Source: Lineus longissimus
Lineage: Eukaryota; Nemertea; Pilidiophora; Heteronemertea; Lineidae
Length of the DNA stretch: 64,000 nt
Direction: 5' to 3'
Assembly: GCF_910592395.1 (NCBI RefSeq)
Contig: NC_088308.1
Span: 12,971,001-13,035,000 of the forward strand
In this document: positions 1-52,250 of the stretch, one piece after another
Position numbering within the stretch: the first letter of the stretch is position 1
Layout: each line of letters begins with the position of its first letter
Position numbers and translations under genes: made by a program
The notes under the pieces: generated by a model
What the model was told of the DNA's origin: nothing
Database searches by the model: none
What the model saw: the letters and a program-made list of their open reading frames with translations, nothing else

Positions 1-530
1 GTTATTTCACCGCTAAGGAGACAGACAAGTGGATTGTCGTTCTGGATGACCTGGTCAGCGGCTACAATAACACATTTCACTCATCAATAGGTATGAAACC
101 TGTAGACGCCAGAAAGATGGAAAACGAAGGAACAGTGTGGTACAATCTTTACGGTCTTCACCTCAAAGAGACATTTGGTGATCCAAAGTACAAAGTAGGT
201 GACAGTGTAAGAATTTCAAAGTACAAGTCCATTTTCGGTAAAGGTTACATGCCCAACTACACTGAGGAGGTGTTCCAAATCAAACAGATCATCTTTACTC
301 ACCCTATCGTCTACCAGCTTGAGGATTACCACAAAGAAGAAATTCAAGGATATTTCTATGAAGAGGAATTGAGCTATGTTCCTAATCCTGACCAGCTAGA
401 GTACAAGATCGAGAAAATCTTGAGGTACAAGACCAGTAAAGGCAAGAAATACGGATTAGTGAAGTGGAAGGGTTACAGTGATAAGTTCAATGAATGGTTA
501 CCAGTTTCTGATATCAAATCATTGAAATGA
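1..530 (+). CDS. INT: Integrase, C-terminal part with chromodomain (copy A, 5' end outside window)
   Basis: The open frame enters from the window edge (first whole codon at base 3) and ends at 530. It corresponds to residues ~209-383 of the intact integrase in copy C (37301-38452). It covers the end of the catalytic core (SGYNNTFHSSIGMKP), an SH3-like DNA-binding region (YKVGDSVRISK) and a C-terminal chromodomain (YKIEKILRYK, VKWKGY, NEWLP), which in other integrases binds modified histone tails and steers insertion. The catalytic D,D,E residues lie outside the window. Confidence 0.93.
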   Translation, partial: YFTAKETDKWIVVLDDLVSGYNNTFHSSIGMKPVDARKMENEGTVWYNLYGLHLKETFGDPKYKVGDSVRISKYKSIFGKGYMPNYTEEVFQIKQIIFTHPIVYQLEDYHKEEIQGYFYEEELSYVPNPDQLEYKIEKILRYKTSKGKKYGLVKWKGYSDKFNEWLPVSDIKSLK

Positions 531-618
531 AATAAAGTCTCTAAAGTGACTTAAGTCACAAGAACAAGTTCGAAAAACGTAATTTAAAAAAAAAATGTCC
601 TACTAAATAAAGAAAGAA

Positions 619-1737
619 ATGGAGGGAGCAATATTTGATAATCAAAATGGTATGATGAATCAAAATGGTATGATGAATCATGATAATATGATGAATCATG
701 ATAATATGATGAATCAAAATATTCAGAAGTTTTTGTATTATTTGCATCAAAATAATATGTTAAATCAAAATATGATAAATCAGATTATGTTAAATCAAAA
801 TATGATAAATCAGTTTATCTTAAATCAGATTATGTTAAATCAAAACATGGAAAATCAGAATATGATAAATCAGAATAATATGATGAATCAAAACATGGAA
901 AATCAACCTACAATTTATTGTGTTAAGTGCTGTGAAAAGAAACCTGAAATTAATTTTGAAAAGAACAGGCGTAATAAACTACTTGATTACTGTAAAGAAT
1001 GTGGTTCAAGTAAAATCAAGGGATGTAATAAATGTTATGAAATTAAATTACTAAGTGATGGTGAATTTGGTAAAAACGGAAATAGAGGTAACTGCAGATC
1101 ATGTTTTAATTCATATTACAAAAAGGATTACCTTGACCAAAATGGTAATAGAGACAGACACAAAATTAGAGTTGGTCTAAACCGCATTTCTAAGGGAGAG
1201 TGTAACGGTAATTCCTCATTTAATCTAGGATGTACAGACAGTTTCTTCCATCAGTGGTTAGAGAACCAGAGGAGTCTATCTCCAATAGGACAAAGTCCCG
1301 GGAACAGAGTTTGAATAGAAGAAGCGTTGGATCATGTCTTACCAATCAAGGAATTCAAAGATAAACCTGAACTGTGCTTTGCTTGGTTTAACATGAGACC
1401 AATGGAAAAGACAGAAAACAGACAGAAGAGTGCTAAAGTAGACTACACACTATTTAAGGATCAATTGGATAGGTCAATGGATTTCATGGTAAAGATGAGA
1501 AGTGAAAACTGGTTTGTCTTTCGAGACCAGGATGTAATACCAGATTGGAAAATAGTGATATCACAGCATTTCGGGGATTATCTTCGTGATGAAAATACGA
1601 TTCTGCTTGATAGATTATCGAATTTAAATAATAACATGAGAATGAACCAGAACATTAACATATGTAGTCAGACAGAAATCATAAACGAGATGATTAAGTT
1701 GAATAATAGACTTGAAAAAATTTACTCTTTGCAGTGA
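619..1737 (+). pseudogene. HNH-type zinc protein with Asn/Gln-rich N-terminus (copy A, broken)
   Basis: The first part (619-1314) has Asn-Gln-Met repeats over ~95 residues followed by Cys pairs (CVKCCEKKP, CKECGSS, CNKC, CRSC) that look like zinc ribbons. A TGA at 1312-1314 replaces the CGA codon of copy B; the frame resumes and carries LDHVLPIKEF and FNMRPM..ENRQKSA, an HNH-endonuclease-like core. The TGA lies in the Arg codon of a two-hairpin element, so it is probably a CpG transition. A 1-base deletion near 1717 also changes the last residues. The intact form is at 29871-30977. A DNA-nicking role is inferred from the motif only. Confidence 0.8.
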
Positions 1738-1761
1738 ATTGATTTTATTCTACTTAATTAA

Positions 1762-2013
1762 ATGAATAGAACTTGGGGTTACACAAAACGACCACGTAAT
1801 TGGAAAGAAAGATTAGAACGATTTCATAGAGAATTAGAGGCAGAAGTAGAGTCAAAGTTGGAGCCTGGTCCCGAAAAACCTTTAAAACCTGCTGGGCCTG
1901 CTGGGTCAGAAAAACCTTTAACATTTAATGTACTTCAAAAACCTGTAGTGTCTGTAAGATCAACACTAAACACTAGAAATGACAGAACAACTGATTCTAG
2001 TTATTCCCACTAA
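1762..2013 (+). CDS. 83-aa basic protein, Pro-rich middle (copy A)
   Basis: I do not recognise the family. The N-terminus is basic and aromatic (MNRTWGYTKRPRNWKERLERF), followed by an acidic helix and Pro/Gly/Lys repeats (PLKPAGPAGSEKP). The start ATG lies in TTAATTAAATG, and the next gene begins 4 bases after its stop. It is kept open in all three copies, with a 6-residue repeat expansion in copy C, which argues for a real gene. Confidence 0.7.
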   Translation: MNRTWGYTKRPRNWKERLERFHRELEAEVESKLEPGPEKPLKPAGPAGSEKPLTFNVLQKPVVSVRSTLNTRNDRTTDSSYSH

Positions 2014-2017
2014 TTAA

Positions 2018-2677
2018 ATGAATGGAGACAAAAAGGTTTATCCAGATTTAAGTAATTTAAACTCTGAAAGTCAATTAAACTATGAAAGGTCTGAAAAGCA
2101 TACAGAAAGTAACCCTCAGGCTTTCAGACTACAACAAATATGTGATGTTAAGAGTTTCTTAGAAAGCGAGATTGAATTTAGAAGAAAGATATTTTCAAAG
2201 TACAAAAAAGCATTTAGCGTAATTACTGGCATTAGCCATTTCCTTAATTTTGCCAGCGTAGCAGCCGGATCTGTTGGTGTTTCTGCTCTAGCTGGTGTCA
2301 TCACGGCACCGATAGGCTTAGCTTTGGGTGGCGTAACAATAGGTAGTGCCATTATTTCATCAGCCTTAGGCTGGGAGAAAAAGAATATTCTAAGGAAAAT
2401 TGAAAAGCATGAGAATATCAGAATGTTGGCAATTTCAAAACTGAACACAATCAATGATTTGGTCAGTAAAGCCTTAACCGATTCTCACATATCTACAGAT
2501 GAGTTTACTTTGATTCTCAAGGAGAAGGAGAAATACATTTCGATGAAAAATGCCATTAGGAAAAAACAAAGGGAGGCAAGTTCAGCTGTTGATGTAGAGT
2601 CTTTAAAGAAGACTTTTTTAGAAGAAGGAAAAAAACTAGCACAGACAGAGATGCTAGAAAAACTAAAAGTTCAGTAA
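2018..2677 (+). CDS. 219-aa membrane protein (copy A)
   Basis: Unrecognised family. Residues ~66-118 are a Gly/Ala-rich hydrophobic stretch (two possible membrane passes, SVAAGSVGVSALAG and LALGGVTIGSAII) between charged amphipathic helices. This resembles virion membrane-active proteins, which is inference. ATG at 2018 in TAAATG context. Near the end, the run of seven A's at 2629-2635 (A-AAA-AAA in frame) precedes an open -1 frame that continues to 2895; see the extension entry. Confidence 0.75.
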   Translation: MNGDKKVYPDLSNLNSESQLNYERSEKHTESNPQAFRLQQICDVKSFLESEIEFRRKIFSKYKKAFSVITGISHFLNFASVAAGSVGVSALAGVITAPIGLALGGVTIGSAIISSALGWEKKNILRKIEKHENIRMLAISKLNTINDLVSKALTDSHISTDEFTLILKEKEKYISMKNAIRKKQREASSAVDVESLKKTFLEEGKKLAQTEMLEKLKVQ

Positions 2678-2895
2678 ATCAAACAGGACCCGGACTACGT
2701 CCAGAGAACAGAGTTCGACTCGAGCTATGCTCTCAAGACGAAGTCGGACTAGGACAAAGTCCAGAGAACAAAGTTCGACTAAATAGTCCTAATCCTAATG
2801 TGGTGTATCACTATCACTATTATCATTACTTTGGTGTTAGAGATGAATTTCACCAAGTAGCACTACCATCAGCACCACCCTATTCATTAGTTTAA
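2629..2895 (+). CDS. -1 frame extension of the 219-aa protein, ends in PSAPPY (copy A)
   Basis: The -1 frame is open from upstream of the slippery run at 2629-2635 to a TAA at 2893-2895 and contains no ATG, so it needs frameshifting (or splicing) to be made. It first reads through three two-hairpin elements (2691-2778), then a Tyr/His-rich stretch (NVVYHYHYYHYFG) and finally LPSAPPYSLV. PSAP is a form of the P(T/S)AP late-domain motif that binds the ESCRT protein TSG101. The same frame is open in copies B and C, although they differ in the number of inserted elements. Translation by frameshift is inference. Confidence 0.6.
   Translation, partial: KKTSTDRDARKTKSSVNQTGPGLRPENRVRLELCSQDEVGLGQSPENKVRLNSPNPNVVYHYHYYHYFGVRDEFHQVALPSAPPYSLV
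2691..2778. repeat. Three two-hairpin elements (copy A, in -1 extension)
   Basis: Units with stems GAAC/GTTC (twice) and GAGC/GCTC. All three are read without stops in the -1 frame. Confidence 0.85.
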
Positions 2896-2998
2896 TCGAG
2901 CTATGCTCTCAGGACAAAGTCCGAATAATGATTTTGCACTCGAGCTATGCTCTCAGGACGAAGTCCGACTAGGACAAGGTCCAGAGAGCAAAGCTCGA
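2896..2998. repeat. Three two-hairpin elements between genes (copy A)
   Basis: Units at 2896-2924, 2940-2968 (forward) and 2969-2998 (reverse), between the extension stop and the polB stop. They are noncoding. Confidence 0.85.
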
Positions 2999-5385
2999 CT
3001 CAAGCGAAGTTTGAATTGCTGTAATCCATGTAGCCTTCATAATACATTCCAAATGGTAAGGTGCTTATTCCATCTTCAAGTATGAACCTCTTGTCATCAA
3101 AAGGACTGAGGCTTTTTTTGTCAACTTCTTCCAAATAGATTTGGTGTTTATCTGATCTTAAGTGTCTCATCTTGTGGTAAAATGACCTACTCTTTTCAAG
3201 ACAATCAACATTGTCATCAAATGAGATATTTCTCCTTACTACATTCTTGGCAATACCCTTTAATTTCTTAGAATCGTAATCTTTTGTCCTGTAAGCGTAC
3301 ATCTTACTTCTCAGGGCAATGAATTCAGTCATCTCTACTCCTCCTAGCTCATCCTTAAAGTAGCCTGGTACCTTCTTTTTACTGGTATCATAGAGTGTAT
3401 GATCTTTTGGATAATTACTGAAGTCAAAATAGTGTTTCAACTCCTTTAAGTCTTTAGTTAAGTCATCAGTATTAATGTTAAGTACAAAGGAATCTGTATC
3501 TAGATACAGCAGTTCAATATTTTTCTCACCAAAGTACGGTTGAAGAACTTCATAATAGAATTCATACATTAATAATTTAGACAATTCAAGTACTGAAGCT
3601 CCTATGTAGATTGGTTTGTTGAATTTCATTGATGTTTTCCTCATGCTAATAGCAGCATTCTGTTCGTCAAATACGCATATCGATGAAAACCTGGGATTGG
3701 CCATTACATTCCTGGCTCTCTCCCCGTCCGATACAAATTCAATTTCAACCCTGTTCCTTACATTCTCACAAGTCTTTCCGTAGAACGCATTATTCATGAG
3801 CTTAAAATAGTCTTTCTCAAAATCAGTCTTAGAATCCATACGTCTTTTAGTGTTAAAATCAATGTATGGTGCTAACCACTTTGATTGTTTAAAGCTTATC
3901 ACTGAATGAACCCTCTTAAGTACCATTCCGTGCTTGAGGTAAAATTGTAGCATTCTGTAATGCACTATGTAATTAGTTTTATCCTTTTGTGTTAGTATTA
4001 GTTTCTCTACATTTGATCTTTTATCATCGCCCAGTAACTCTCTCTGGTAAGGACTTAATTCATCATCTTCAATAAAGAGAGATTCAGGACAGAATGGAAA
4101 GTTCCTCGACTTAAATTTAATATTTCCTGGATACTCCAAATCCACCTCTAAGAAATACCCTACCTCACTATCACTTGGAATTGCCATAATCTGCTCTTTA
4201 CTAATAGCATTCATGTTAAGTGGATCAATATCTATCATTTCAAAACTACCATAGGGTTGAGGTTCCATCATGGACCATCCGTAAAGATTGTTTGCGTCTA
4301 CGTAGAGTAGTTTGTGGTGTTCATCTGCCTTGACATGTCTTGTTCCCATAACACCCGAAATTCCACCTCGTATTGCTTTCTCAAAAGTAAGTAAGATGTT
4401 GGTATCAGTCAGTAGTTCTAGGTTTATTCCTGTGTACTTCAAACCAGCTTGCCAGGTTAGGCCTGGTGCCGAGTAACAGTGACATGGATCAATCTGAAAG
4501 TAGTTCAAATTGACATCCCTGAATTTCTCAAATAAATCAGCTAAAAGGATCACATCAGTTTTGAGGTAGAGGTCAATGAACTCACCGTGATTCCTGATCT
4601 TGAAATGATCCCATATTACCTTAGCTTCATCATAGGCAGAATCAGGTGCCATTTCATTTTTCAATTCGTCAAAAAACATAGACTTTTCTAGGTAAGTAAC
4701 ATTGTAGCTTTCATGTGATGTGTAAAAAGAGTAAGGTACTGAACCCTTCTTCCTCAATAGCTTAAAGTCAGTGGTATTTGGGAACAGCTGTCTGGTAATT
4801 TTAAAATCATCATCCAACATTGATTTGGTTATGTTGTCTAAACTGGACTGCAGGAATCTGTACGAGTCCAAAAACCTGAAACAACCGAACTGAAATGAGA
4901 TGTATTCCTCTGATGTTTTGGCAAGTATTTTCAGTTTCTTGTACTTCGGTAGCTTAGTCATTAATTCTTTAATAAATAAGTGAGAATCGTAATTACTGAG
5001 ATTGTGAAAAAATACTGGAACAAACATAGCTTTCTTTTCATTCAAATTACACGAGTTGTGAGCAGCACCTCGATATCTACCACAGTAGTGATCATGATCC
5101 TTGACCTTGTCATATCCCAAAGGTTGATTACAATAGTAACAATGTGTTTCTAATTGATATTTATGCCAGTCTTCATCTGTCATTGTTAGAGGAAAGTTAC
5201 AGTTCAATAAATTAGAGAATTGTTCTTCCATCCTGATTAACCAATTACAGAACACATCTACAACATCAGCACCCCTGTGAGACACATACTGGCTACTGTA
5301 AAGGTGTGTGTAGTCTGAGTGAACATAAACACCAACAGCTGATGCATTTTGTTTAAAAAGTTTTTTAGTGGTAACAGTGGTATCT

Positions 5386-5456
5386 GTCTGAGGACGAAGT
5401 CCGACTCGAGCTCTGCTCTGAGTTGTGTCGGACTTCGTCCTGAGAGCAGAGCTCGA
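5386..5456. repeat. Inverted pair of two-hairpin elements inside polB (copy A)
   Basis: Forward-like unit next to a reverse unit, making a larger palindrome. Read as SSALRTKSD and RARVGLRPQ. Copy C has unrelated residues here. Confidence 0.85.
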
Positions 5457-5936
5457 GTTATCATTGACTGTTGTGCTTATCGCTTCGAAATCAGCATAGA
5501 TCACAAACGGAACTCTATTTTTGAATGAGTGTTTTTCAAATTTAATTTGTGACCATTTACTGTTAGGTGGAGGCAAAGTAATCTTACAGTAATCGTGTTC
5601 TCCACATTTCTTTTTATGCTTATCTAGTGTTGACTTCCTGTAAAAGTAATTCATGCATCTCCTGCAAAGATACACTCTATGAGCTAGTGTCCTGAAGAAA
5701 AGATTGATGTCTCTTATGTACATGAAATGGTCCTTGAAATACAGCAGATCGATGACATCATCATCATCATAATTCTTGGACAGGTAGAGAGGTTCTAGTT
5801 TTGCCTCACAGGTGCTCTTAGCCGATTCATTCTGCAATTTAAACACATTAATTTTGAGATTATTATCACTTTCTATCTTAGGAATATCCTTTTGAATACA
5901 TACAGGAAATGATTTGATTTTGATATCAGTAGTTTT

Positions 5937-6025
5937 CGAACTCTGTTCTCGTGACGAAGTCATTTGTAGCATATCGGTAGTAATATTTAATGTACTCTCG
6001 AGCTCTGCTCTCAGGACGAAGTCCG
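5937..6025. repeat. Two elements inside polB N-terminal region (copy A)
   Basis: 5937-5963 (stem GAAC/GTTC, read TSSREQSSK, TGA replaced by CGA) and 5998-6025 (read TDFVLRAELES). Confidence 0.85.
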
Positions 6026-6328
6026 TCTCTGGATTTTCTTTTAGATATTTAGCGGCCAATAAAGACCAGAGAAAACATTTATTGTCATTTGATTCCACAT
6101 TTATTACTGCTTTTGTTTTAAATGGTAATTTAGTGTAATGACCACCTTAACACCTCTTGTAAGAACAGATGGTCATGTTACAAGACTCTATTTTATTTAA
6201 AGTAAGTCCAGAACCTTGAAAGTACCTTTCCTCAATCTGTGTCTTAATGTAGTTTAACTGGTTGGTTATGGCATAAATTGCCTGGTTCCTTGAAATTATG
6301 CTTTCCATTGGAGACTGTATGGGGTGTG

Positions 6329-6388
6329 TCGAACTTTGTTCTCGGGACTTTGTCCTAGTCGAGCTATGCTCTCTGGACGTAGTCCGGG
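6329..6388. repeat. Two tandem elements in polB in the stop-prone frame (copy A)
   Basis: Read TRTTSREHSS and TRTKSREQSS. In this frame the canonical TGA would stop translation; here it is AGA and CGA. Copy C lacks both units. Confidence 0.87.
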
Positions 6389-6824
6389 TTACACTTTCAC
6401 CCTGACGATCAATGCTCTGCTCTTCGACCAAAGGTCGATCAAACTGAGCAAATACTGATATGCTAATTTTGTGATGGTAATCATTGAGTTGAAATAATAC
6501 CTCCTCTAATTTATCTCTGTATTCATACACTTGTTTAGCTTCTCTGTCAATCTTCAAACTAATGGTCACTACAGGCTTTCCAAATTGTTTTACTATTTCT
6601 ATTCCACTCACTTTCTTTATGCCATCTAGCTCATTTTCCTCAAATGCAAGTTTCTTATCCATAGTTTTAGGGATCAGTGATTGGGCTCGGGGTTGAGCAA
6701 GAGGCACATAATCCGGATTTAATTTACTTAAGTGACCTTTGGTTCTCCTGTGAATAGCCATATTATTGTAGGATATGTACTTGTCACATGTAGTGCAAAG
6801 TATTTTCTGATTCTTATCAGTCAT

Positions 6825-6880
6825 TCTATTTATTAGATTAAAATTTATTAAATTCAATAAATCTCTTGAATTAAATAGAA
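6825..6880. promoter_or_regulatory. Divergent start region between polB and penton-like gene (copy A)
   Basis: These 56 bp separate the two start codons. Each ATG is preceded by an AT-rich motif: AATAAATAGA before polB and TTAAATAGAA before the rightward gene. The same layout occurs at 25167-25222 and 44494-44549. Promoter function is inferred. Confidence 0.5.
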
Positions 6881-7903
6881 ATGGACTTCATAATCAATGA
6901 ACAAGAATGTAATGAAGCCAAATTTGAGTACTACTTAACAGACCAATTAGACATAAAATCCATTACTTTGAAATCGATAACCTTTTACAATTCATGGTGG
7001 ACAGGTGATTTTCTACCAGAGGGAGTCAGGATTTTCTCATTTCTAGTCGAAATAACCAGAATTACAAAAAATGATGAGCCCTTAGGTAAACAATTATTGT
7101 GTATGGATGAATTTAGGCCATTATTTGATCCTGGACTTGAAACAGATACATTTGAAAAGGAAGTCATGAAAGTTTGCGAACTGGAAAATGAATCTACCAC
7201 AACTAAAGACACCATTACTCAATACACATTTCCATACTCTCGACATTTTAGTTTAAGTGAGTTTTGTGAGGTATGGCAAAAATACATAAAAGAAATTGGA
7301 ATTAGCCACGTTAAGGTCAACTGTGATAACAATAATTACATAACCCTTGAACTTACAGAGGATAAAGAGTACCCTCTGAAAGTAGACAAGTTAGATAAAC
7401 ATGAACACACCGAGATTGAGATAAACACAGAAGGTTTTCAAATAAGCAAAACCATAAGAGAGGTGATAGAAAAACAGCTCACAGTGGTGAATGAGTGGTT
7501 TGGCTTTAAGCAAACTAAATTCACCAAGAAAGGAAAATACTACTCCACAAGACCACTCAACTTTTACAGGAAATATCTATTCCTGCAAGCTAATTTGGTT
7601 GACAAAGCTAAGACCCTCTACAACAATAAACCATCTGACATTTTCTGCATCATACCTGTAGAAGATGGTGACCAAATAAAAATGCAGCGATACGAACCGA
7701 ATTGTAAGAAAACGATAAATAAGTGTACTAATCACATAAAATTCGAAATCACTGATGAGAATGGTAAGCTAGTTAATTTCAGAGGAACAGAGGTTTCTTT
7801 AGAGTTAAGAATAGAGTTAAACTCTCAGGACAAAGTCCGACTAGGACAAAGTCCCGAGAGCAAAGCTCGACCACCTGATGAGATCATTCCATTAAAGGAA
7901 TAG
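6881..7903 (+). CDS. Second penton-like (minor capsid paralogue) protein, 340 aa (copy A)
   Basis: No direct family name, but the layout matches the penton protein of the same element (35380-36147). Both have an N-terminal strand then ITFYNSWW or CTFYNIS, an F-x(2-3)-F/W-x-K helix (FSLSEFCEVWQKYIKE; LQSFSKVFADKLKE), an FG(F/M)K turn, RPLNFYRKY or KPINFRPINH, and a final strand ITDENGKLVNF or LTDEKGEIIDL. I infer a second jelly-roll capsid-vertex or spike protein. The C-terminal tail is made of two two-hairpin elements (7813-7870) and overlaps the convergent membrane-protein gene by 20 bp. Confidence 0.72.
   Translation: MDFIINEQECNEAKFEYYLTDQLDIKSITLKSITFYNSWWTGDFLPEGVRIFSFLVEITRITKNDEPLGKQLLCMDEFRPLFDPGLETDTFEKEVMKVCELENESTTTKDTITQYTFPYSRHFSLSEFCEVWQKYIKEIGISHVKVNCDNNNYITLELTEDKEYPLKVDKLDKHEHTEIEINTEGFQISKTIREVIEKQLTVVNEWFGFKQTKFTKKGKYYSTRPLNFYRKYLFLQANLVDKAKTLYNNKPSDIFCIIPVEDGDQIKMQRYEPNCKKTINKCTNHIKFEITDENGKLVNFRGTEVSLELRIELNSQDKVRLGQSPESKARPPDEIIPLKE
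7813..7870. repeat. Two elements forming the tail of the penton-like gene (copy A)
   Basis: The first has stem GAGT/ACTC in place of GAGC/GCTC (compensated); the second is reverse. Read IELNSQDKVRLGQSPESKAR. Confidence 0.85.
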
Positions 7904-8390
7904 TACATTTCTTCTCTTTAACTACAGGTTTAACAAGAGGGTTAATTGACCCCTTCATGACTGCTTCATTCGGACTTTGTCCTGAGAGCGGAGCTCGATT
8001 CAAGCCTGATCGCTGCTCTTTACTTACTTTTTTAGGAAGTTTCTTAAACATAATGAATGCTGCTAAAATAACGGCACCTAAACCTAGTACATAGACATAG
8101 GTATTACTACTAGATTCACGCAGTGATACATCAGTATTTTGAGATTGTGGTTCTTCTTCCTCTACTTCTTCTTCCTCTTTTTCCATAACTCTGTTTTTTG
8201 GGACAGAGTCCTGTACTTTAAATGTCGTCTTATCCTTTTTTATCCTCTTAGATTCCTTAGATCTTCTACCCAGTTCTCTAGACCATGCTAATTGTTTCTC
8301 TGATCGAGGTTTCTTAGACACTGAAACTTTAGTCGGACTTTGTCCTGAGAGCATAGCTCGAGTAGTATCAGTTACAGTTTCAAGTTCCAT
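7884..8390 (-). CDS. 168-aa single-pass membrane protein (copy A)
   Basis: Unrecognised. A basic region (PRSEKQLAWSRELGRRSK), an acidic Glu run and one membrane segment near residues 105-125 (YVYVLGLGAVILAAFIMF). Two two-hairpin elements are read in the TRAMLSGQSPT/NRAPLSGQSPN frame, one after residue 10 and one near the C-terminus. ATG in GATAAATG context. Copies B and C have frameshifts in the C-terminal part, so that tail may be dispensable. Confidence 0.68.
   Translation of the reverse strand: MELETVTDTTRAMLSGQSPTKVSVSKKPRSEKQLAWSRELGRRSKESKRIKKDKTTFKVQDSVPKNRVMEKEEEEVEEEEPQSQNTDVSLRESSSNTYVYVLGLGAVILAAFIMFKKLPKKVSKEQRSGLNRAPLSGQSPNEAVMKGSINPLVKPVVKEKKCTIPLME
7970..7998 (-). repeat. Two-hairpin element (copy A, membrane-protein tail)
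   Basis: Read NRAPLSGQSPN in the 168-aa protein. Confidence 0.85.
8333..8361 (-). repeat. Two-hairpin element (copy A, membrane-protein N-terminus)
   Basis: Read TRAMLSGQSPT. Present at the same place in copies B (23614) and C (46022). Confidence 0.87.
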
Positions 8391-8409
8391 TTATCTTGGC
8401 CGAATTTAA

Positions 8410-8437
8410 TTCGAACTATGTTCTCATAACCAGGTTA
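8410..8437. repeat. Diverged two-hairpin element between genes (copy A)
   Basis: GAAC-TAT-GTTC, TCA, then TAACC-A-GGTTA: the second stem has a different sequence but still pairs. Same in copies B and C. Confidence 0.65.
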
Positions 8438-8439
8438 AT

Positions 8440-9291: not shown

Positions 9292-9341
9292 TTAAATTAT
9301 GGAAAAATGACTGTTAAGTGCAAAATGCTGTTTTCACAACT

Positions 9342-10574: not shown

Positions 10575-10655
10575 ATTTACATGATAATTATTTTTTAAAC
10601 ATTGTTTTGATAGAAGTTCACCTAAGACCTTTTATGTTTTTTTAACTGTTTTACG

Positions 10656-12155: not shown

Positions 12156-12165
12156 AATTACTTAT

Positions 12166-32812: not shown

Positions 32813-32822
32813 TCCCGCTTCT

Positions 32823-36664: not shown

Positions 36665-36675
36665 CAGAAGCGGGA

Positions 36676-39527: not shown

Positions 39528-39546
39528 TTTTATTTTACTTAATTAA

Positions 39547-39816: not shown

Positions 39817-39820
39817 TTAA

Positions 39821-40641: not shown

Positions 40642-40730
40642 TCGAACTTTGTTCTCTGGACGTAGTCCTAATCGAGCTATGCTCTCAGGACAAAGATCGA
40701 CTCGAGCTATGCTCTCAAGACGTAGTCGTA
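40492..40730. repeat. Element cluster between membrane protein and polB (copy C)
   Basis: Units at 40492-40520 and half 40523-40535 (in the -1 extension), then 40642-40670, 40672-40700 and 40701-40730 (noncoding, close to the polB stop). Confidence 0.83.
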
Positions 40731-40731
40731 C

Positions 40732-44493: not shown

Positions 44494-44549
44494 TCTATTT
44501 ATTAGATTAAAATTTATTAAATTCAATAAATATCTTGAATTAAATAGAA
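44494..44549. promoter_or_regulatory. Divergent start region, polB / penton-like gene (copy C)
   Basis: As in copies A and B: AATAAATAGA before polB and TTAAATAGAA before the rightward gene. Confidence 0.5.
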
Positions 44550-45530
44550 ATGGACTTCATAATCAATGAACAAGAATGTAATGAAGCCAAATTTGAGTAC
44601 TACTTAACAGACCAATTAGACATAAAATCCATTACTTTGAAATCGATAACCTTTTACAATTCATGGTGGACAGGTGATTTTCTACCAGAGGGAGTCAGGA
44701 TTTTCTCATTTCTAGTCGAAATAACCAGAATTACAACACATGAGCCCTTAGATAAAAAATTATGGTGTAGGACATTATTTGCTCCTGGACTTGAAACAGA
44801 TACACTTGAAAAGGAAGTCATGAAAATTTGCGAACGGCATTTGGAAAATGATTCTACCACAACTAAAGACACCATTACTCAATACACATTTCCATACTCT
44901 CGACATTTTAGTTTAAGTGAGTTTTGTGAGGTATGGCAAAAATACATAAAAGAAATTGGAATAAGCCATGTGAAAATTTACTGTGATAACAATAATTACA
45001 TAACCCTTGAACTTACAGAGGATAAAGAGTACCCTCTGAAAGTAGAAAAGTTAGATAAAAATGAAAAAATCAAGATTGAGAGAAACACAGAAGGTTTTCA
45101 AATAAGCAAAACCATAAGAGAGGTGATAGAAAAACAGCTCACAGTGGTGAATGAGTGGTTTGGCTTTAAGCAAACTAAATTCACCAAGAAAGGAAAATAC
45201 TACTCCACAATACCACTCAACTTTTACAGGAAATATCTATTCCTGCAAGCTAATTTGGTTGACAAAGCTAATACCCTCTACAACAATAAACCATCTAACA
45301 TTTTCTGCATCATACCTGTAGAAGATGGTGACCAAATAAAAATGCAGCGATACGAACCGAATTGTAAGAAAACGATAAATAAGTGTACTAATCACATAAA
45401 ATTCGAAATCACTGATGAGAATGGTAAGCTAGTTAATTTCAGAGGAACAGAGGTTTCTTTAGAGTTAAGAATCGAGCAGAGCTCTCTGGCCTTTGTCCTA
45501 GACGGACTTCGTCCAGAGAGCAAAGCTTGA
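44550..45530 (+). CDS. Second penton-like protein, 326 aa (copy C)
   Basis: Homologue of 6881-7903 with a short deletion after residue ~60. The element-encoded tail (45472-45530) ends at a TGA where copy A has CGA (GCTCGA to GCTTGA), so the stop is a CpG transition inside the element. Confidence 0.72.
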   Translation: MDFIINEQECNEAKFEYYLTDQLDIKSITLKSITFYNSWWTGDFLPEGVRIFSFLVEITRITTHEPLDKKLWCRTLFAPGLETDTLEKEVMKICERHLENDSTTTKDTITQYTFPYSRHFSLSEFCEVWQKYIKEIGISHVKIYCDNNNYITLELTEDKEYPLKVEKLDKNEKIKIERNTEGFQISKTIREVIEKQLTVVNEWFGFKQTKFTKKGKYYSTIPLNFYRKYLFLQANLVDKANTLYNNKPSNIFCIIPVEDGDQIKMQRYEPNCKKTINKCTNHIKFEITDENGKLVNFRGTEVSLELRIEQSSLAFVLDGLRPESKA

Positions 45531-45688
45531 CCACCTGATGAGATCATTCCATTAAAGGAATAGTACATTTCTTCTCTTTAACTACAGGTTTAACAAGAGG
45601 GTTAATTGATCCCTTCATGACTGCTTCATTCGGACTACGTCCAGAGAACAAAGTTCGATTAGGACTTTGTCCTGAGAGCATAGCTCGA
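45472..45688. repeat. Element cluster at penton-like gene tail and beyond (copy C)
   Basis: Units at 45472-45500, 45502-45530 (supplies the TGA stop), 45630-45658 (stem GAAC/GTTC) and 45660-45688. Confidence 0.83.
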
Positions 45689-45713
45689 TTCAAGCCTGAT
45701 CGCTGCTCTTTAC

Positions 45714-46079
45714 TTACTTTTTAGTAAGTTTCTTAAACATGATAAATGATGCTAAAATAATTGCACCTAAACCTAGTACATAGACATAAGTATTACTACT
45801 AGATTCACGCAGTGATACATCAGTATTTTGAGATTGTGGTTCTTCTTCCTCTAATTCTTCTTCCTCCTTTTCCACAACTCTGTTGTTTGGTGAGGAGTCC
45901 TGTACTTTAAATGTCGTCTTATCCTTTTTTATCCTCTTAAATTCCTTAGATCTTCTACCCAGTTCTCTAGACCATGCTAATTGTTTCTCTGATCGAGGTT
46001 TCTTAGACACTGAAACTTTAGTCGGACTTTGTCCTGAGAGCATAGCTCGAGTAGTATCAGTTACAGTTTCAAGTTCCAT
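45714..46079 (-). CDS. Single-pass membrane protein, C-terminus truncated (copy C)
   Basis: Homologue of 7884-8390. A one-base deletion just after the membrane segment gives FKKLTKK and a stop; the lost tail is the part also altered in copy B. Confidence 0.68.
   Translation of the reverse strand: MELETVTDTTRAMLSGQSPTKVSVSKKPRSEKQLAWSRELGRRSKEFKRIKKDKTTFKVQDSSPNNRVVEKEEEELEEEEPQSQNTDVSLRESSSNTYVYVLGLGAIILASFIMFKKLTKK
46022..46050 (-). repeat. Two-hairpin element (copy C, membrane-protein N-terminus)
   Basis: Read TRAMLSGQSPT. Confidence 0.86.
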
Positions 46080-46128
46080 TTATCTTGGCCGAATTTAATT
46101 CGAACTATGTTCTCATAACCAGGTTAAT

Positions 46129-46980
46129 TTAGTCTTCTTTATCATCACTACCTGTGATATCTAGACTTTCATCTATTGATTTGTCACATTCAGAGACAGT
46201 CATATTTGGTGTATTCATATTTGATGCAGTCATACTCGATGTATTCATAGATGATTCCTCATGACAATGACCTAAAGTAATAAGTGTTGTTGAAGCAAGT
46301 GCAGTTAGTGCACCCATTCTCAAACTCAACCATCCAAGCCATTTATCCAACTCGTTAGTTATCAAATAATCATTTCTAAGATCATGGTAAAGATCATCTT
46401 CATCATCTATTGGTAATAACCACCTTGATAATTTAGTGTAAGCTTTAAGTACTGTCTTACCCAAAGAATCATTAAGTCTGGCAGCCATATTTGTTTCATA
46501 CATTCTATGGTGTTTTAAGATTTCTTTTTCAGTCATATTATCTAAGTCATTAAAAGTTATTTGTTTATTAAGGAAATCCTTGCTTTTACCAGTTGCAACT
46601 AGAATCTCTAAGTCTTGTTTGGCTTTAAGGCCACTATCAGTCAAATAGTTCAAATTTTGTTGATTGCTAGTCGGACTTTGTCCTGAGAGCGTAGCTCGAG
46701 TTGAGCCTAGTTGGCAACTAGAATTGACTATTCCTTGACTGGGATTAACTATTCCTTGACTAGGATTAACAAAATTTGAACTATTCAACTGCTTGTTTGA
46801 AACTTGTTGATTTGTAGAGCAGTTCTGTTGAAAGTTAGTTCTGTTTTGTTGGTAACTACCAGTGTTCTGTTGGTTAGAAGCCCCAACTCGAGCTAAGCTC
46901 TCAGGACTCATAACACCAATCTGTTTCATCTGTTGTTCAATCACTGCAGATGTCTGATTATTCATTTGCTGATTATTCAT
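46129..46980 (-). CDS. Gln/Asn-rich protein, 283 aa (copy C)
   Basis: Homologue of 8440-9291 with the duplicated VNPSQGI segment as in copy B. Elements at 46671-46699 and 46887-46907 are in frame. Confidence 0.7.
   Translation of the reverse strand: MNNQQMNNQTSAVIEQQMKQIGVMSPESLARVGASNQQNTGSYQQNRTNFQQNCSTNQQVSNKQLNSSNFVNPSQGIVNPSQGIVNSSCQLGSTRATLSGQSPTSNQQNLNYLTDSGLKAKQDLEILVATGKSKDFLNKQITFNDLDNMTEKEILKHHRMYETNMAARLNDSLGKTVLKAYTKLSRWLLPIDDEDDLYHDLRNDYLITNELDKWLGWLSLRMGALTALASTTLITLGHCHEESSMNTSSMTASNMNTPNMTVSECDKSIDESLDITGSDDKED
46671..46699 (-). repeat. Two-hairpin element (copy C, Gln-rich protein)
   Basis: Read TRATLSGQSPT. A half element follows at 46887-46907. Confidence 0.85.
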
Positions 46981-47031
46981 TTAAAATTATGGAAAAGTGA
47001 CTGTTAAGTGCAAAATGCTGTTTTCACAACT

Positions 47032-48324
47032 TTATTGCATCTTAACACTAGCTCGAGCTATGCTCTCAGGACGAAGTCCGGCTCGAGCTATGCTCTCAGG
47101 ACGAAGTCCGGCTCGAGCTATGCTCTCAGGACGAAGTCCGGCTCGAGCTATGCTCTCAGGACGAAGTCCGGCTCGAGCTGTGCTCTCAGGACGAAGTCCG
47201 GCTCGAGCTGTGCTCTCAGGACGAAGTCCGGCTCGAGCTATGCTCTCAGGACGAAGTCCGGCTGGTGTAAACTTAATATTACTGATGCAATTAATGTCTC
47301 GACCTGCACTGGCACTCAGTAAAACGTCAAACTGCTTGTCAATATCCTGGTCATATTCCTTCTCAACCTTGTAATTCTGGAAGAAAATACTTTGAGTGAA
47401 ATCATACCATAATCTCTCCAAATCATTTACTCGCTCCTTGTTGGTTAAAAAAGGTGTAAATATTACATAATCAATTTTCAGCGTTTTAAAGGCTATGTGT
47501 AAAAATACCTTGTAGTTAATGGTGACCTTGACACCACAGTAATGCAGAAATCTAAGGAAAGCATAGTACACTAGTCTAAGGTCAGTGATATTCTCATCGG
47601 TTAATTGCGGTTTACCAATTGCCCTGTTAATAAATTCAATGGCAAGAAACCAATCATATTCCCCACAGTGAAATTTAAAAAGCATGGCTTCACCATGTAA
47701 CCCTTGGTTACAAAACTTAGAGGGGAGAGTGTTAATACCCATTTTTAGGGCTGACTGAAGAGTACTTTCATATCTCTGCTTACTAAGACATTTTCTGTGA
47801 CTTGAAAAGTAGCAATGTAAATACCCTTCCACAAAGTCCTTTAAATACTTAACTGCCGATTCGGACAGCCGACTCCATCCAAGTTTCCTTAGAATACTGT
47901 CAAAGTAACGTGTCTTGTTGTCAATATTGATCTCAAGAGTTTTAAAATCATCGTCGTAAGTAGTCGAATTGCAATTGGTGCAGAATTGATACTTCACAGT
48001 TTTAGCTGCGTACCTTGCTGAATTCAAGTTTTTTTGATACTCAAAAAGGGTCCACCTTTTACAATTACGGCAGAATTGAGCATTAGTGTTGGTACTGACG
48101 TCATATTCTTTCATTCTTGGCAGGACTACTTTGTGTGTCTCAGTAGGCTTATCAAATTTCCCACTGTCATAATTCTTGCTGACATTTTCTTCACTAAAAT
48201 TTCTATCCATGACCCTAGGACGAATGTATCCTTTAAGATTCTCATTGTTCCACTCGAGCTCTGCTCTCAGGACGAAGTCCGACTCACTAGAATAATAGTC
48301 TTTTAATGAGATGTATTTATTCAT
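47032..48324 (-). CDS. Zinc-ribbon protein with seven-unit decapeptide tail, 430 aa (copy C)
   Basis: Homologue of 9342-10574. The tail holds seven tandem AGLRPES(I/T)AR units from seven 30-bp elements, against two in copies A and B. It lacks the elements that copy A carries after residues ~45 and ~60, and those empty sites give the uninserted sequence. CRNC and CTNC are kept. Confidence 0.75.
   Translation of the reverse strand: MNKYISLKDYYSSESDFVLRAELEWNNENLKGYIRPRVMDRNFSEENVSKNYDSGKFDKPTETHKVVLPRMKEYDVSTNTNAQFCRNCKRWTLFEYQKNLNSARYAAKTVKYQFCTNCNSTTYDDDFKTLEINIDNKTRYFDSILRKLGWSRLSESAVKYLKDFVEGYLHCYFSSHRKCLSKQRYESTLQSALKMGINTLPSKFCNQGLHGEAMLFKFHCGEYDWFLAIEFINRAIGKPQLTDENITDLRLVYYAFLRFLHYCGVKVTINYKVFLHIAFKTLKIDYVIFTPFLTNKERVNDLERLWYDFTQSIFFQNYKVEKEYDQDIDKQFDVLLSASAGRDINCISNIKFTPAGLRPESIARAGLRPESTARAGLRPESTARAGLRPESIARAGLRPESIARAGLRPESIARAGLRPESIARASVKMQ
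47051..47260. repeat. Seven-unit tandem array of 30-bp elements (copy C)
   Basis: Seven perfect-length units. Units 5 and 6 share the loop change TAT to TGT, which points to duplication within the array. They encode seven decapeptides in the zinc-ribbon protein tail. Confidence 0.95.
48253..48281. repeat. Two-hairpin element (copy C, zinc-ribbon protein N-terminus)
   Basis: Read SDFVLRAELEW; same site as 10504-10532, empty in copy B. Confidence 0.86.
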
Positions 48325-48371
48325 ATTTACATAATAATTATTTTTTAAACATTGTTTTGATAGAAGGTCAC

Positions 48372-49985
48372 CTAAGACCTTTTACGTGATTTTACTGTTT
48401 TACGTGATTTTAAGGCTTTAACACCCCCAATTAAACCATAAATTATGGAGCTCACAATAGCAATAACTGCTATGATCAGATGTTCGGCTAGAAAGCCAAC
48501 AACTGCACCAATTGTTTTCAGGAGAAATGATACGATAGAACCGATGATTCCCGGTAAAGCCGCAGCTGATTTCTTGGCTAGTTCTTTTAGCCATTCAGCA
48601 AACTTCTTTAGACCTTCTTTTACTTTATCTGGTATTGATGGTTTTGGTCCAGGTTCTGGTGTAGGTCCTGGAGTTGGGTCTGGTCCTGGAGATGGTCCTG
48701 GTCCTGGAGTTGGTTTTACAGATTTAGTGGCACCACTTAAAGCACTACTGATACTAAGACCTAGAGTTGTAAATGTCATTACAACAGCTGTTATTATGGC
48801 GCTAATGGTTACACCATACGTCTTAAAAAGTAACTTTATTCTGTCCTTCAGAGGAATAGTTGAATCTGGTTTCTTTAGAACATCAACAATTAAACGTTTA
48901 ATTCTTCTAGTTTGTGACTCCCTGTCATTGTCTAACCTCCATACCTTTGACTGTTCCTCATGCAATTTGTCATTTAGTTCATCTATTTGCTTTTTCAACT
49001 CTCCTTTATCTTTAGTATCTTCTTCTACAGACTTTACATAGTCTCTTGTTAAATTATGAAGTTTATTTTCTAGTTCTTGTATTTGCATGTCCTTATCCCT
49101 CTTTACTGCAGCTAGTTTATCACCAGCCTGTTTTAACCCTCTAAGTTCTCTCAAGGCATATTCAGTAAAACCCAGTGATTTAAGTTCATCATCATTAGAA
49201 TCTATCAGTTTATCTATTGGTTTGTTTGAACTGTTTACCTCATTAATTACTGCCTGTGTTTCAGGGGTTACTAATGTAGGTTCCCTTACTGGTGGGTCAG
49301 GTGCAATCATACCTCTAATCATGTCAGCAAATCTCAGACCATACTTATTCTTTAATGTGCCTTCAGCATAGAAGCTTCCATTATCCTTAGTTAAAGGAAT
49401 TAACTTTATCTTTTCTCCATTTTTATCAGAATATTCAAATAAATTTTTGTTTCCTCGTTTATCTTTTATCAAATCAAATTCAGAATTTCTCGGATTGTAA
49501 TAAAGTTTGTTTCCATTGTAACTAATGTGTGGTGAAAGATTACTCAATTTTTTCTTGTCATAATTCCAGATTGATCCTCCCAATGCTGTATCAAGTTTAT
49601 CCTCTATTGTATCGTAACTTAACTCCTTTTCCATCAATTCAGGGACAATACCTCTTACTCTTTCTGGTGTACTGAATGAAGTTTCAGTAGTAAGATTTCC
49701 ACCTCCTGTGTTGTATGTTGTGCCGTCATCTTGAAAAGTTCTATTGGTTTCACCTGTATTAGGATCTATCTCATCCATTTGGATATATTCACCTCCTGTG
49801 TTGTATGTGGTGCCGTCATCTTGAAAAGTTCTATTGATTTCACCTGTGTTGTATCTTGCGTGAATATATTGATTAATTAAATCATTCTTTCTCATTTCTA
49901 GAATTTGTTCAAAAGTTCCTGATGATGATGATGATGATTGTGAATCGTAATCATCCATTTCATAATTTTCACCTCCTTCAGCCAT
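48372..49985 (-). CDS. Coiled-coil Pro-Gly-Pro membrane protein, 537 aa, intact (copy C)
   Basis: Homologue of 10656-12155 with a different N-terminus (Ser run, two YNTGGE repeats with NRTFQDDG) and a longer basic C-terminus (SRKTVKSRKRS) after the last membrane segment. The coiled coil and Pro-Gly-Pro repeat are conserved. Confidence 0.7.
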   Translation of the reverse strand: MAEGGENYEMDDYDSQSSSSSSGTFEQILEMRKNDLINQYIHARYNTGEINRTFQDDGTTYNTGGEYIQMDEIDPNTGETNRTFQDDGTTYNTGGGNLTTETSFSTPERVRGIVPELMEKELSYDTIEDKLDTALGGSIWNYDKKKLSNLSPHISYNGNKLYYNPRNSEFDLIKDKRGNKNLFEYSDKNGEKIKLIPLTKDNGSFYAEGTLKNKYGLRFADMIRGMIAPDPPVREPTLVTPETQAVINEVNSSNKPIDKLIDSNDDELKSLGFTEYALRELRGLKQAGDKLAAVKRDKDMQIQELENKLHNLTRDYVKSVEEDTKDKGELKKQIDELNDKLHEEQSKVWRLDNDRESQTRRIKRLIVDVLKKPDSTIPLKDRIKLLFKTYGVTISAIITAVVMTFTTLGLSISSALSGATKSVKPTPGPGPSPGPDPTPGPTPEPGPKPSIPDKVKEGLKKFAEWLKELAKKSAAALPGIIGSIVSFLLKTIGAVVGFLAEHLIIAVIAIVSSIIYGLIGGVKALKSRKTVKSRKRS

Positions 49986-49995
49986 AATTACTTAT

Positions 49996-51387
49996 TTATC
50001 TAACCATAAAAACAATCAATGTACCAACAACTGAGTAAAGCATGAATTTAATTGTTTTATGAGTATCATCCACCTTCTCAACTTTGGTGTCAAGTTTAGT
50101 AGTAGTAGGAGTATTCTTTGAGGTTTCAGTTGTTTTTGGTGTATCAACATTACTATTTGGTTTATGACTGGTCTCGAGCTTTGCTCTCAGGACGAAGTCC
50201 GTCATTGATGTACCAACGCTACTCTTAACTCTTATTTTCTTAGAACTATTTCCTTCCATCAGTGGTGGTGGTAAGGTCTTTTTGTGGTTAATGTCATTCT
50301 TACCGGGTTTAGCATTTTTTGGTGCTATTAAAATGTTATTATTGTAGTTATCCAGCTTACCAATAACGAGTACCATATTTGATCCTATGACATACAATCC
50401 TGGTGATATTACATAATCTAGTCTTGTATGAGTGTCACTCACTGCTTTTTGATATCTTTGAATTGAAGTGGGAATATCAGGATGTTGATTAATCGAATCC
50501 TTTAATAGTTTGTTAAATTCCTTCTGTGCATCCAATTCTGTACCCGGTACTCCAATTATTGGTGTTCTGGTCAACGCCTGAGCACCCAGAATACAGTAAA
50601 CATATGTTCTTATTGTATCATTCAACCTCTCTATTCCAGGATTAGAGAAACCATTTGATTTAAATATCATGAATTGTTGATAGGTTTGACATTCATTTTG
50701 TGTAATTACATCAAATACATTCTTGTGTCTCCTGACATGATCCTTGATGAAAATATCTGGATATTTGAAATTAGCCATTCCAGCATCCCAGTCTTTACTG
50801 AACATCGGTGGCATTCTATTTTCATGAACTTGCATGAGGAAGAAATTGATTTTAGAATCATTGATGTAATATCCGGGATCAGTTATGTTCGGGTTGTAAT
50901 CCGGTACATTCCATGACCTCCAACCACCGTTATTTTCAAACACCGAGAAATCGTACTCGTCTTTTAAACCAAATTCACTCAATAACCCTCCTAGTTTCCT
51001 ACGGTTAATGTTATTGTTTGTCTCATTAAAATCACTTTCACCTGGAATTGGTATCTCTAGATTCTTCATGATCTTCAATATTTGATAGTAAACATGAAAC
51101 CTGTAAATTGACCTTAACAATGGGTCACTGTGATTCAAGTGATCGTCTATTGAAATACCACAACCTGTTGTAGCAAACCAAACAGCCATGTTAAATTGGT
51201 TCTGGTAAAACGATAATGGATTCTTTTCCAGTAGCAGACAGTCTTTCTTATTTTTCAGGCTCAAAAACCCAGGTGTTATCTTAGTTTCTTGTAGTCTGAA
51301 GAAGTTATTAGTATTAACAGTTACTTCTAAATTAAAGAAGTCATAGGTGAATTTACTTTTATGTTGATTTGCTATTGGATAATACAT
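49996..51387 (-). CDS. C-terminally anchored protein, 463 aa (copy C)
   Basis: Homologue of 18439-19830, sharing its shortened N-terminus (MYYPIAN, start in AATTAAATG). One element (50173-50201) is in frame in the linker before the anchor. Confidence 0.75.
   Translation of the reverse strand: MYYPIANQHKSKFTYDFFNLEVTVNTNNFFRLQETKITPGFLSLKNKKDCLLLEKNPLSFYQNQFNMAVWFATTGCGISIDDHLNHSDPLLRSIYRFHVYYQILKIMKNLEIPIPGESDFNETNNNINRRKLGGLLSEFGLKDEYDFSVFENNGGWRSWNVPDYNPNITDPGYYINDSKINFFLMQVHENRMPPMFSKDWDAGMANFKYPDIFIKDHVRRHKNVFDVITQNECQTYQQFMIFKSNGFSNPGIERLNDTIRTYVYCILGAQALTRTPIIGVPGTELDAQKEFNKLLKDSINQHPDIPTSIQRYQKAVSDTHTRLDYVISPGLYVIGSNMVLVIGKLDNYNNNILIAPKNAKPGKNDINHKKTLPPPLMEGNSSKKIRVKSSVGTSMTDFVLRAKLETSHKPNSNVDTPKTTETSKNTPTTTKLDTKVEKVDDTHKTIKFMLYSVVGTLIVFMVR
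50173..50201. repeat. Two-hairpin element in anchored-protein linker (copy C)
   Basis: Read TDFVLRAKLE; loop TTT in the first hairpin. Confidence 0.86.
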
Positions 51388-51976
51388 TTAATTTACTTGA
51401 ATTTTTTTCCTTGAATTTTGGTTAATGAAGACAGTAAAAAGGCCATTTATTTTAATGGAATAATCTCACCAGATGGAGGAAGTGTGACGTTAACATCATG
51501 TCTCCATGGACAGAATAACATTTGCCTTTAAACCATAGTAATATTCAGTTGTACAATGGCCATATCAGATGTTGCAATCATTAATTATTTTTGCTTGTCA
51601 AAGACATGAAAAGGCCTATTGTGTCTTAATGCGTTTATCCGACAGAATTTTAGAAAATATTTTCAGCGCTGAAAATTATTTTTGTGTCGTTAAAATAATG
51701 TCTCGAAATTCTGTCGGATAAACGCATTAACGAACAATAGACTTTTGTAATACTTTGGGACGTGAGTATTGTTTGGTAACATATGTTACCATGTACATGC
51801 AGACACTGTCAACATTATTTTCAATAGATTCAAGCAACAATGATTAATCACTGTAACAGCTGTCTTGTAGGCCTACAGCATTTATTGGAATACGCTGGGA
51901 CTGTCAAGATGTGCGAACTTCAAGGGTTCATTTCTCTGCTAGTTTTTAACGGATATTTGCAATGATGTATCCTTGG
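51388..51976. other. Inner terminal region of copy C with long palindrome; no gene
   Basis: The block 51497-51976 is shared with the other end of copy B (54668-55241). It contains a perfect 20-plus-bp inverted repeat (GCGTTTATCCGACAGAATTT and its complement, about 51630-51730) around a central TTCAGCGCTGAA. No coding frame is supported. Confidence 0.75.
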
Positions 51977-52250
51977 AAAGCTATTGACGTGTACTTTCTG
52001 TTGGAATACAGTAAGTCATGATTACATTAACCCATTGAACTCTAGTATTCCCTTACCATTTCACTGCAACGCTTCACTGACCATTTCATTGCAACGCTTC
52101 ACTGGGAATCTAATGAATGATAGAATATATGTATTGTGGTGTCTGGTTCTTTGGGGTTGTAGGCTATTTTGAGACAAAAAGGCCTGTAAGGGCTTTTGTC
52201 AAAATAGCTTAGAATTACCTACATTCCTACCACCACAATACATATATTCT
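51977..52250. repeat. Terminal inverted repeat of copy C, right (~274 bp)
   Basis: It pairs with 33409-33670. It contains a local duplication of the motif around CAACGCTTCACTG (about 52068-52101) that is absent from the left repeat. Confidence 0.92.
52122..52250. repeat. Terminal palindrome of copy C, right end
   Basis: Same orientation (the arm containing GGTAGGAAT outermost) as the other four termini. The arms carry the C-type GTGG/CCAC change. Confidence 0.87.

Follow-up and report, generated by a model that had tools for sequence, protein, structure and literature searches.

The locus

The window analysed here, a 64,000-bp stretch of the Lineus longissimus genome (NC_088308.1, positions 12,971,001 to 13,035,000), contains three copies of a Polinton, a virus-like element, and a family of short double-hairpin units that differ in presence between these copies. 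Positions are numbered from the first nucleotide of the window. Copy 1 (1-13850) is truncated by the window start, copy 2 (18179-33409) is inverted, and copy 3 occupies 36087-52250. The three bodies were assigned to the Polintons by their predicted gene set, which comprises an integrase with rve and chromodomain, an A32-type ATPase, a viral polB and a capsid match that falls short of the cut-off. A capsid-gene module is also present twice (33717-36093 and 52251-54626). The Polinton copies are about 97% identical at aligned positions, with pairwise substitution of 2.8-3.4% (363 substitutions between copies 1 and 2, 384 between 1 and 3, and 430 between 2 and 3). The copy 2 polB region has a 399-bp gap relative to copy 1, and polB of copy 2 is broken into several open reading frames (ORFs). 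The principal genes are as follows.

31066-32094, minus strand: Polinton integrase, copy 2.
37301-38452, plus strand: Polinton integrase, copy 3 (rve plus chromodomain).
32192-32812, plus strand: packaging ATPase (Pox_A32), holding no unit.
33747-35006, plus strand: major capsid protein (MCP) candidate, with a Capsid_N match below cut-off, holding no unit.
53336-54595, minus strand: second copy of the MCP candidate.
40732-44556, minus strand: polB ORF of copy 3 (1274 aa), containing 4 of the 79 units described below.

Sequence and fold of the units

Both orientations were searched with the pattern GAGCnnnGCTC-TCA-GGACnnnGTCC. At up to three mismatches this gave 68 matches between 2692 and 50200, where shuffles expect 0.01, and at up to five mismatches it gave 79 units. 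All 79 lie inside the three Polinton bodies (45.2 kb), and none lies in the remaining 18.8 kb of the window, which consists of the two capsid-gene module copies and other DNA. A covariance model produced one weak match outside the bodies (53314-53345, E 0.48), and no family reached its gathering score in an Rfam scan of the window. Clustering on flank similarity placed the 79 units in 37 site groups. Note that these groups are approximate: one site is counted twice, as 10336 and as 21609, and adjoining units can merge across sites.

What repeats is a core of 27 bp (CGAGCTATGCTCTCAGGACGAAGTCCG type), usually accompanied by a direct repeat of 3 bp. The core can fold as two hairpins, each with a 4-bp stem and a 3-nt loop, joined by 3 nt. 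Stems include GAGC/GCTC, GAAC/GTTC, GAGT/ACTC and TGCC/GGCA and spacers TCA, TCT and TCG, and despite this variety the plan of hairpin, 3-nt spacer and hairpin is constant. A preliminary description of this DNA had reported about 70 units of a 30-bp GAGC/GGAC two-hairpin element, confined to the Polinton copies and missing from the flanking DNA. The number, the confinement and the two-hairpin plan hold; the 30 bp resolve into the core and its repeat, and stems and spacers are more variable than had been stated.

A second scan ignored sequence and required a pair of hairpins separated by 3 nt, each with a perfect 4-bp stem and a 3-nt loop. It returned 61 double hairpins; 30 random sequences averaged 2.2 and never exceeded 5. 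The pattern set already contained 57 of them, and the other four bring two new sequence types, GAAC/GTTC with TAAC/GTTA (three copies) and TGCC/GGCA with GAAC/GTTC (one). Among hairpin-pair spacings, a spacer of 3 was most prominent, followed by 5 (24 pairs, 20 of them between or within adjacent units); spacers of 1 and 8 were slightly above chance (9 and 8 pairs versus 1.5-2). For covariation, 37 units were chosen, of which 31 are distinct. Standard pairs filled 96.8% of the pair cells, a value that leans high because the pattern that found most units includes the stems, and six of the eight pairs showed two-sided change, a result equalled by none of 500 shuffles, with slid controls far lower. 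Separately, a 19-bp repeat at 32838-32875 and 36613-36650 duplicates the second hairpin alone, as if half units were copied too.

Direct repeats were assessed at 21 isolated sites by comparing bases at a lag of 30. Next to the core, the three positions agree in 15, 16 and 13 cases; control positions compared over that lag agree in 3-9, and other lags give 0-13. The triplet is duplicated exactly at 10 of these sites (ACT 5, AAT 2, TCT 2 and ATT 1). ACT is the commonest flanking triplet; AAT, TCT, ATT, GCT and GTC also occur.

Gain and loss between Polinton copies

When the three copies are aligned, units are present in some and absent from others, with gaps that are often 30, 60 or 150 bp. Indels of at least 9 bp are exact multiples of 30 in 6 of 17 cases for copies 1 and 2, 11 of 38 for copies 1 and 3, and 12 of 41 for copies 2 and 3. 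Read singly, all of these are units in the first two comparisons and 9 of 12 are units in the third, the others being one GAT repeat and two that fall inside a larger gap of copy 2. Because of this presence and absence, often in 30-bp steps and with 3-bp direct repeats, the units are insertions that behave like a mobile element, gained or lost between sister Polintons. The individual sites are listed here.

2691-2777, unstranded: three adjoining units, orientation alternating; copy 2 has two, copy 3 one and a remnant.
2897-2997, unstranded: three units; copy 3 has a different trio at the same place (40643-40729).
4217-4221 (the 4219 junction), unstranded: empty in copy 1, where the bare site reads ACT; one unit flanked on both sides by ACT in copy 3 (41984-42010); two oppositely oriented units with three ACT in copy 2 (27765-27821).
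5392-5418, plus strand: circularly permuted unit (GGAC hairpin, GACTC, GAGC hairpin) with the 6-bp junction repeat TCTGAG; copy 2 is empty.
5429-5455, minus strand: unit in polB, the sole unit in the frame designated same2; copy 2 is empty; 2-bp junction repeat.
5937-6025, plus strand: two units in all three copies, 5937-5963 of SREQSS type (TGAC/GTCA stem) and 5999-6025 of DFVLRAELE type.
6330-6386, plus strand: two adjoining units, opposite a 60-bp gap at 44087 in copy 3; 2-bp junction repeat.
6406-6437, minus strand: divergent 30-bp insert with a CGACC-AAA-GGTCG hairpin and a CGATCAA direct repeat, lacking in copy 3; weak model match (E 0.55).
7813-7869, unstranded: two units close to the C-terminal end of ORF 6875-7903; the set differs in each copy (24106-24231, 45473-45529).
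7971-7997, minus strand: RAPLSGQSP-type unit with AAT/AAT flanks; copy 3 has an additional unit (45631-45657).
8334-8360, minus strand: RAMLSGQSP-type unit, ACT/ACT; unit and 42-bp flanks are identical in the three copies.
8412-8438, plus strand: structure-only member GAACtatGTTC-tca-TAACcagGTTA, also at 23538-23564 and 46101-46127.
9004-9030, minus strand: RATLSGQSP unit, ACT/ACT, in three copies.
10302-10361, minus strand: two tandem units with AGT repeats; copy 2 has one (21608-21634), copy 3 none (near 48142, AGT).
10428-10454, minus strand: unit in copies 1 and 2, absent from copy 3; junction repeat of 1 bp only.
12345-12371, plus strand: DFVLRAKLE-type unit shared by all three copies at one site (19625-19651, 50175-50201); TCT/TCT, in copy 3 TCT/TCA.
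38958-38984, plus strand: copy-3-only unit inside the endonuclease-VII-like ORF 38529-39527; 1-bp junction repeat.
41020-41046, plus strand: divergent unit in copy 3 polB with a GTC/GTC repeat; copy 1 lacks a unit here.
43208-43234, plus strand: double hairpin with TGCC/GGCA and GAAC/GTTC stems in a copy-3-specific stretch; no clean insertion relative to copy 2.
47051-47263, plus strand: seven-unit tandem array with a period of 30 bp and GCT separating the units, located where ORF 47035-48381 (minus strand) has its C-terminal end; the other copies have two units each at this place (9361-9423, 22561-22617).

Thirteen presence/absence junctions were compared with the empty site of a sister copy. 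An exact junction repeat of at least 3 bp was found at eight (4219, 10302, 5388, 6408, 3286, 7972, 2687 and 2895). These junctions bear on the main rival explanation, template switching with no dedicated element, in which the polymerase would exit at a short match such as ACT, copy a unit or part of an array, and re-enter at the same match; hairpins would provoke the switch, and gene conversion would keep the units alike. ACT is the commonest flanking triplet, with 5 of the 10 exact cases at isolated sites, junction repeats range from 1 to 7 bp, and mixed unit sets are found at one place. Template switching better explains why ACT predominates, why one unit is permuted and why arrays grow. It would, however, need a donor with the same triplet for each of the AAT, TCT, ATT, GCT and GTC flanks, and the exact 30 bp of the commonest step and the stem compensation across differing sequences also speak against it. 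We consider it possible but somewhat improbable.

In 23 pairs of units aligned between copies, changes affected 7 of 368 stem sites, 65 of 1932 flank sites and 11 of 138 loop sites, stems being more conserved than the flanks and loops less so; note that changes are few overall and that one pair of unlike units (7814/45474) supplies 3 of the 7 stem changes and 5 of the 11 loop changes. Slow stems would be anticipated if the units were useful to the Polinton, as dispersed replication, recombination or packaging signals or as RNA structures, and were retained by selection instead of being parasitic, and their high density and confinement to Polinton bodies point the same way. Positions and numbers nevertheless change between copies that differ by 3%, and some sites are empty; five distant relatives are without such a family (see below); the MCP and ATPase ORFs hold none; and the stem conservation comes from few changes in non-independent pairs. 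We regard usefulness as an unlikely reason for the presence of the units.

Reading frames and translation

ORFs of at least 100 codons enclose 63 of the 79 units, and six of six frames are used (opp1 21, same0 15, opp0 10, same1 8, opp2 8 and same2 1), although the sixth frame is a single unit and 7 of the 21 opp1 units form one tandem array. To avoid circularity, gene frames were set with all units masked, and at least 60 codons outside units were required. This rule yielded a frame for 66 units and none for the other 13. Stops in the masked gene frame occurred in 0 of 66 units, whereas permuting frames over 33 site groups gave a mean of 6.7 and never 0 in 10000 permutations. In the frame where a TCA spacer would read TGA, TCA is used at 0 of 6 sites, compared with 21 of 27 in other frames (Fisher p 0.0008). 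A loop-by-frame test pointed in the same direction and was not significant (0/3 versus 14/30, p 0.24). The units thus appear to sit open to translation, the usual step adding ten residues without breaking the gene frame.

The tally bears out the earlier claim that units inside coding frames add residues in at least five of the six frames, the sixth now being represented by its one unit. Of the accompanying proposal, a parasitic or regulatory hairpin element tolerant of translation, it is the tolerance that is supported, by the lack of stops and by the avoidance of the TGA-reading spacer.

Units might alternatively be cut from RNA as mini-introns or be skipped by the ribosome. The bypassed inserts reported from Magnusiomyces mitochondria form hairpins. 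In M. capitatus such short inserts occur at 81 positions in protein genes (PMC5009743), and the present units are likewise short inserts at many protein-gene positions. The Magnusiomyces inserts disrupt the frame and are skipped, whereas the Polinton units are open in the gene frame as read from the sequence (0/66 stops, usual 30-bp step). Spacer use that suits the frame, a commonest net length that is a multiple of three, and insertion edges that on inspection carry no GT...AG make removal or bypass very improbable indeed.

Searches for relatives

Protein searches with polB gave 4142 homologs above threshold, and unit peptide patterns were checked in the 120 that were listed. Among these 120 the named sources are animals (molluscs, anthozoans and a spider), with one labelled Sulfurimonas. 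None of nine unit peptide patterns was found in the 120. In an alignment of ten relatives, the approximately ten residues of unit 41020-41046 fall in a gap in all nine relatives that cover the position (P0006 stops earlier). Residues of unit 41984-42010 are a gap in most of the ten, and P0012, P0013 and P0014 have 4-8 other residues there. One relative, the JGI protein P0007 (Pfam entries PF14528 and PF14890), has a long insert with an eight-residue NGETSALL repeat directly after the CYYC motif, plus a second long insert; other Polinton lineages may have in-frame repeat inserts of their own.

A covariance-model search, of the kind that the preliminary description had proposed for other Polintons, was made in five distant polB-relative loci (29-34% identity); they gave no spacer-3 double hairpins and no model match up to E 1. 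Exact unit patterns were absent from the viral_contigs and genome_contigs collections. Six viral contigs each had one half-pattern match, which we took as chance because the model scores are low (18-23 bits versus 24-44 for most window units) and the contigs had been selected by the half pattern itself; one contig with a single permuted-pattern match contains no other unit. As far as the searched collections reach, the unit family looks recent in, or special to, this Polinton lineage.

Other queries were also run. No viral relative was found for the MCP or for one polB piece, the tandem array had no match in phage DNA and the MCP none in phage records, and residues 1-425 of ORF 9345-10631 gave no homolog at E 0.001. 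Searching with the array peptide returned at least one protein at E up to 1, the one found among the 8000 candidates scored. This protein, P0122, belongs to the BatA family (PF07584) and has ten-residue repeats, AGLRDESAAR, comparable to the array peptide GLRPESIARA; we judged the likeness, from the protein alone and without settling it, to be chance between low-complexity repeats. A weak DotG/IcmE match of ORF 47035-48381 was put down to the period-10 repeat of that ORF.

Neighbouring sequence

The capsid module occurs twice in inverted orientation (33409-36093 and 51552-55443), with repeats of approximately 260 bp at 33409-33670, 51977-52250 and 55191-55443. This layout may reflect nesting or inversion of Polintons in a complex arrangement, or a join made in assembly. 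Beside the Polintons is a reverse transcriptase (55526-57230, minus strand; RVT_1 E 2e-36 in ORF 56007-57230) that probably belongs to an element resembling a long interspersed nuclear element (LINE). A dUTPase ORF (58487-59068, plus strand; PF00692, E 5e-32) is also present, and downstream of it is ORF 59617-60132, with no Pfam match. A flanking tandem array at 61482-62833 comprises about 17 copies of an 81-bp repeat, about 90% alike.

Comparison with known elements

Several known systems share part of this anatomy. Double-hairpin elements (DHEs) of fungal mitochondria (Allomyces, fission yeasts) are tiny, GC-rich, potentially mobile two-hairpin units, which in fission yeasts are intergenic or in rRNA genes (PMC10085805). 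The Polinton unit is also a pair of adjacent short hairpins with presence and absence, here between copies in one window; unlike DHEs it is non-mitochondrial, lies inside protein genes and usually changes length by a frame-keeping 30 bp.

Yeast mitochondrial GC clusters (GC42 and others) are palindromic, with AG or ACT direct repeats resembling target-site duplications; they turn over quickly, merge, and have stems that evolve more slowly than loops (PMC4478555). They are mostly intergenic, and 42 bp in the best-studied case. Polinton units similarly have short direct repeats at both ends (3 bp, although 5 of 13 junctions have 1-2 bp and 3 others abut a unit), and their stems too are slower than their loops, on few changes. 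Where the GC-cluster target is AG or ACT, the Polinton flanks have ACT most often, with AAT, TCT, ATT, GCT and GTC besides. Miniature inverted-repeat transposable elements are comparable in having a target-site duplication, with the exceptions just given; they differ in their terminal inverted repeats, which the Polinton unit lacks, only CG being common to its ends.

Rickettsia palindromic elements (RPEs) occur in frame within many unrelated genes (PMC10969869), as do the Polinton units, but RPEs are about 150 bp and bacterial, and the Polinton unit is 27 bp in the virus-like element of a eukaryote. In Nematomorpha mitochondria, coding palindromes, which are inverted repeats, are likewise retained inside translated genes; they reach 284 bp with arms that encode conserved protein, and the abstract mentions no separate inserted unit (PMC6649704). 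By anatomy the closest systems are DHEs and yeast GC clusters, and by habit RPEs. The Polinton unit, on this comparison, combines the DHE/GC-cluster plan with the RPE habit and fits none by location. The likening to RPEs made in the preliminary description is accordingly apt for the in-frame genic habit, while DHEs and GC clusters are nearer in size and structure. Its statement that no such element was known from Polintons agrees with our search, which found no description of such hairpin elements in Polintons in the open-licence literature, most subscription journals lying outside it; PMC5799277 treats giant-virus hairpins.

Interpretation

We favour, with a probability of roughly 0.6, a reading in which a non-autonomous mobile double-hairpin micro-element lives in this Polinton lineage and the units are its copies. 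A new copy would enter at a 3-bp staggered break. The 27-bp copy and the 3-bp break would together make 30 bp, so the frame would be kept wherever the copy lands and ten residues would be inserted. Selection would remove copies that add stops or strike conserved protein cores; selection of the latter kind is suggested because none of the 79 units lies in the MCP or ATPase ORFs. This staggered-break and selection part of the mechanism fits the data. More tentatively, copying might take place during the protein-primed strand-displacement replication of the Polinton, single strands folding into the two hairpins, and the break might be made or resolved by a structure-selective, endonuclease VII-like nuclease of the Polinton. 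One such ORF was considered.

38529-39527, plus strand: endonuclease-VII-like ORF, copy 3 (phrog_1035, E 2e-7).

Endonuclease VII of phage T4 resolves branched DNA, and for this reason the ORF is a reasonable yet weak candidate for the mobilising nuclease. Copy 1 polB includes an endonuclease VII-type segment (PF02945, E 5e-4, below the Pfam cut-off).

A number of observations weigh against the favoured reading. Not every length change at a unit site is a multiple of 30 (27, 33, 53 and 14 bp also occur). The circularly permuted unit (5392-5418) would not be yielded by a fixed-end transposon but would be by copying of a tandem array. On inspection, the unit edges (CGAG... and ...TCCG) have only CG in common, and the unit has no terminal inverted repeat longer than 2 bp. 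Folding energies are modest, with z between -0.6 and -3.2 for six units folded as DNA. Since the search pattern already contains the stems, the percentage paired is inflated, and compensatory changes were permitted, not required. Five of the 13 junctions have a repeat of 1-2 bp only (10425, 1204, 5427, 6328 and 37413), and of the eight with longer repeats, three (7972, 2687 and 2895) abut another unit able to supply the match. Note that the 13 were chosen from 30- and 60-bp indels, so that their gap length is by choice. Flanking triplets also diverge between copies more than wider flanks (8/138 versus 65/1932). Because of the five weak junctions and the three that abut a unit, either target duplication is non-obligatory or the core carries ACT itself; the five would fit later change or a core with its own ACT. 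As to the nuclease, the copy 2 counterpart (ORF 29874-30989) has no phrog_1035 match at E 0.1, and the copy 3 ORF has no Pfam, NCBIfam or PDB sequence match.

A bolder version of the mobile-element reading would be a transposable element of 27 bp outside organelles, replicated by structure, with the two-hairpin plan inherited and not the sequence. It would be moved by the cruciform-cutting nuclease of the Polinton during strand displacement, and 27 + 3 bp would be an adaptation to genic life in six frames that gives ten-residue linkers to viral proteins. We offer this version as speculative and, taken as a whole, doubtful.

Palindromic GC clusters were first recognised some forty years ago, and their mode of movement is open (PMC4478555). 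The Polinton units are a similar element in a setting with its own polymerase, integrase and perhaps junction nuclease, where empty and filled sites stand side by side, and the mechanism is for that reason testable in vitro. The units also show a route for the repeated gain of short in-frame protein inserts.

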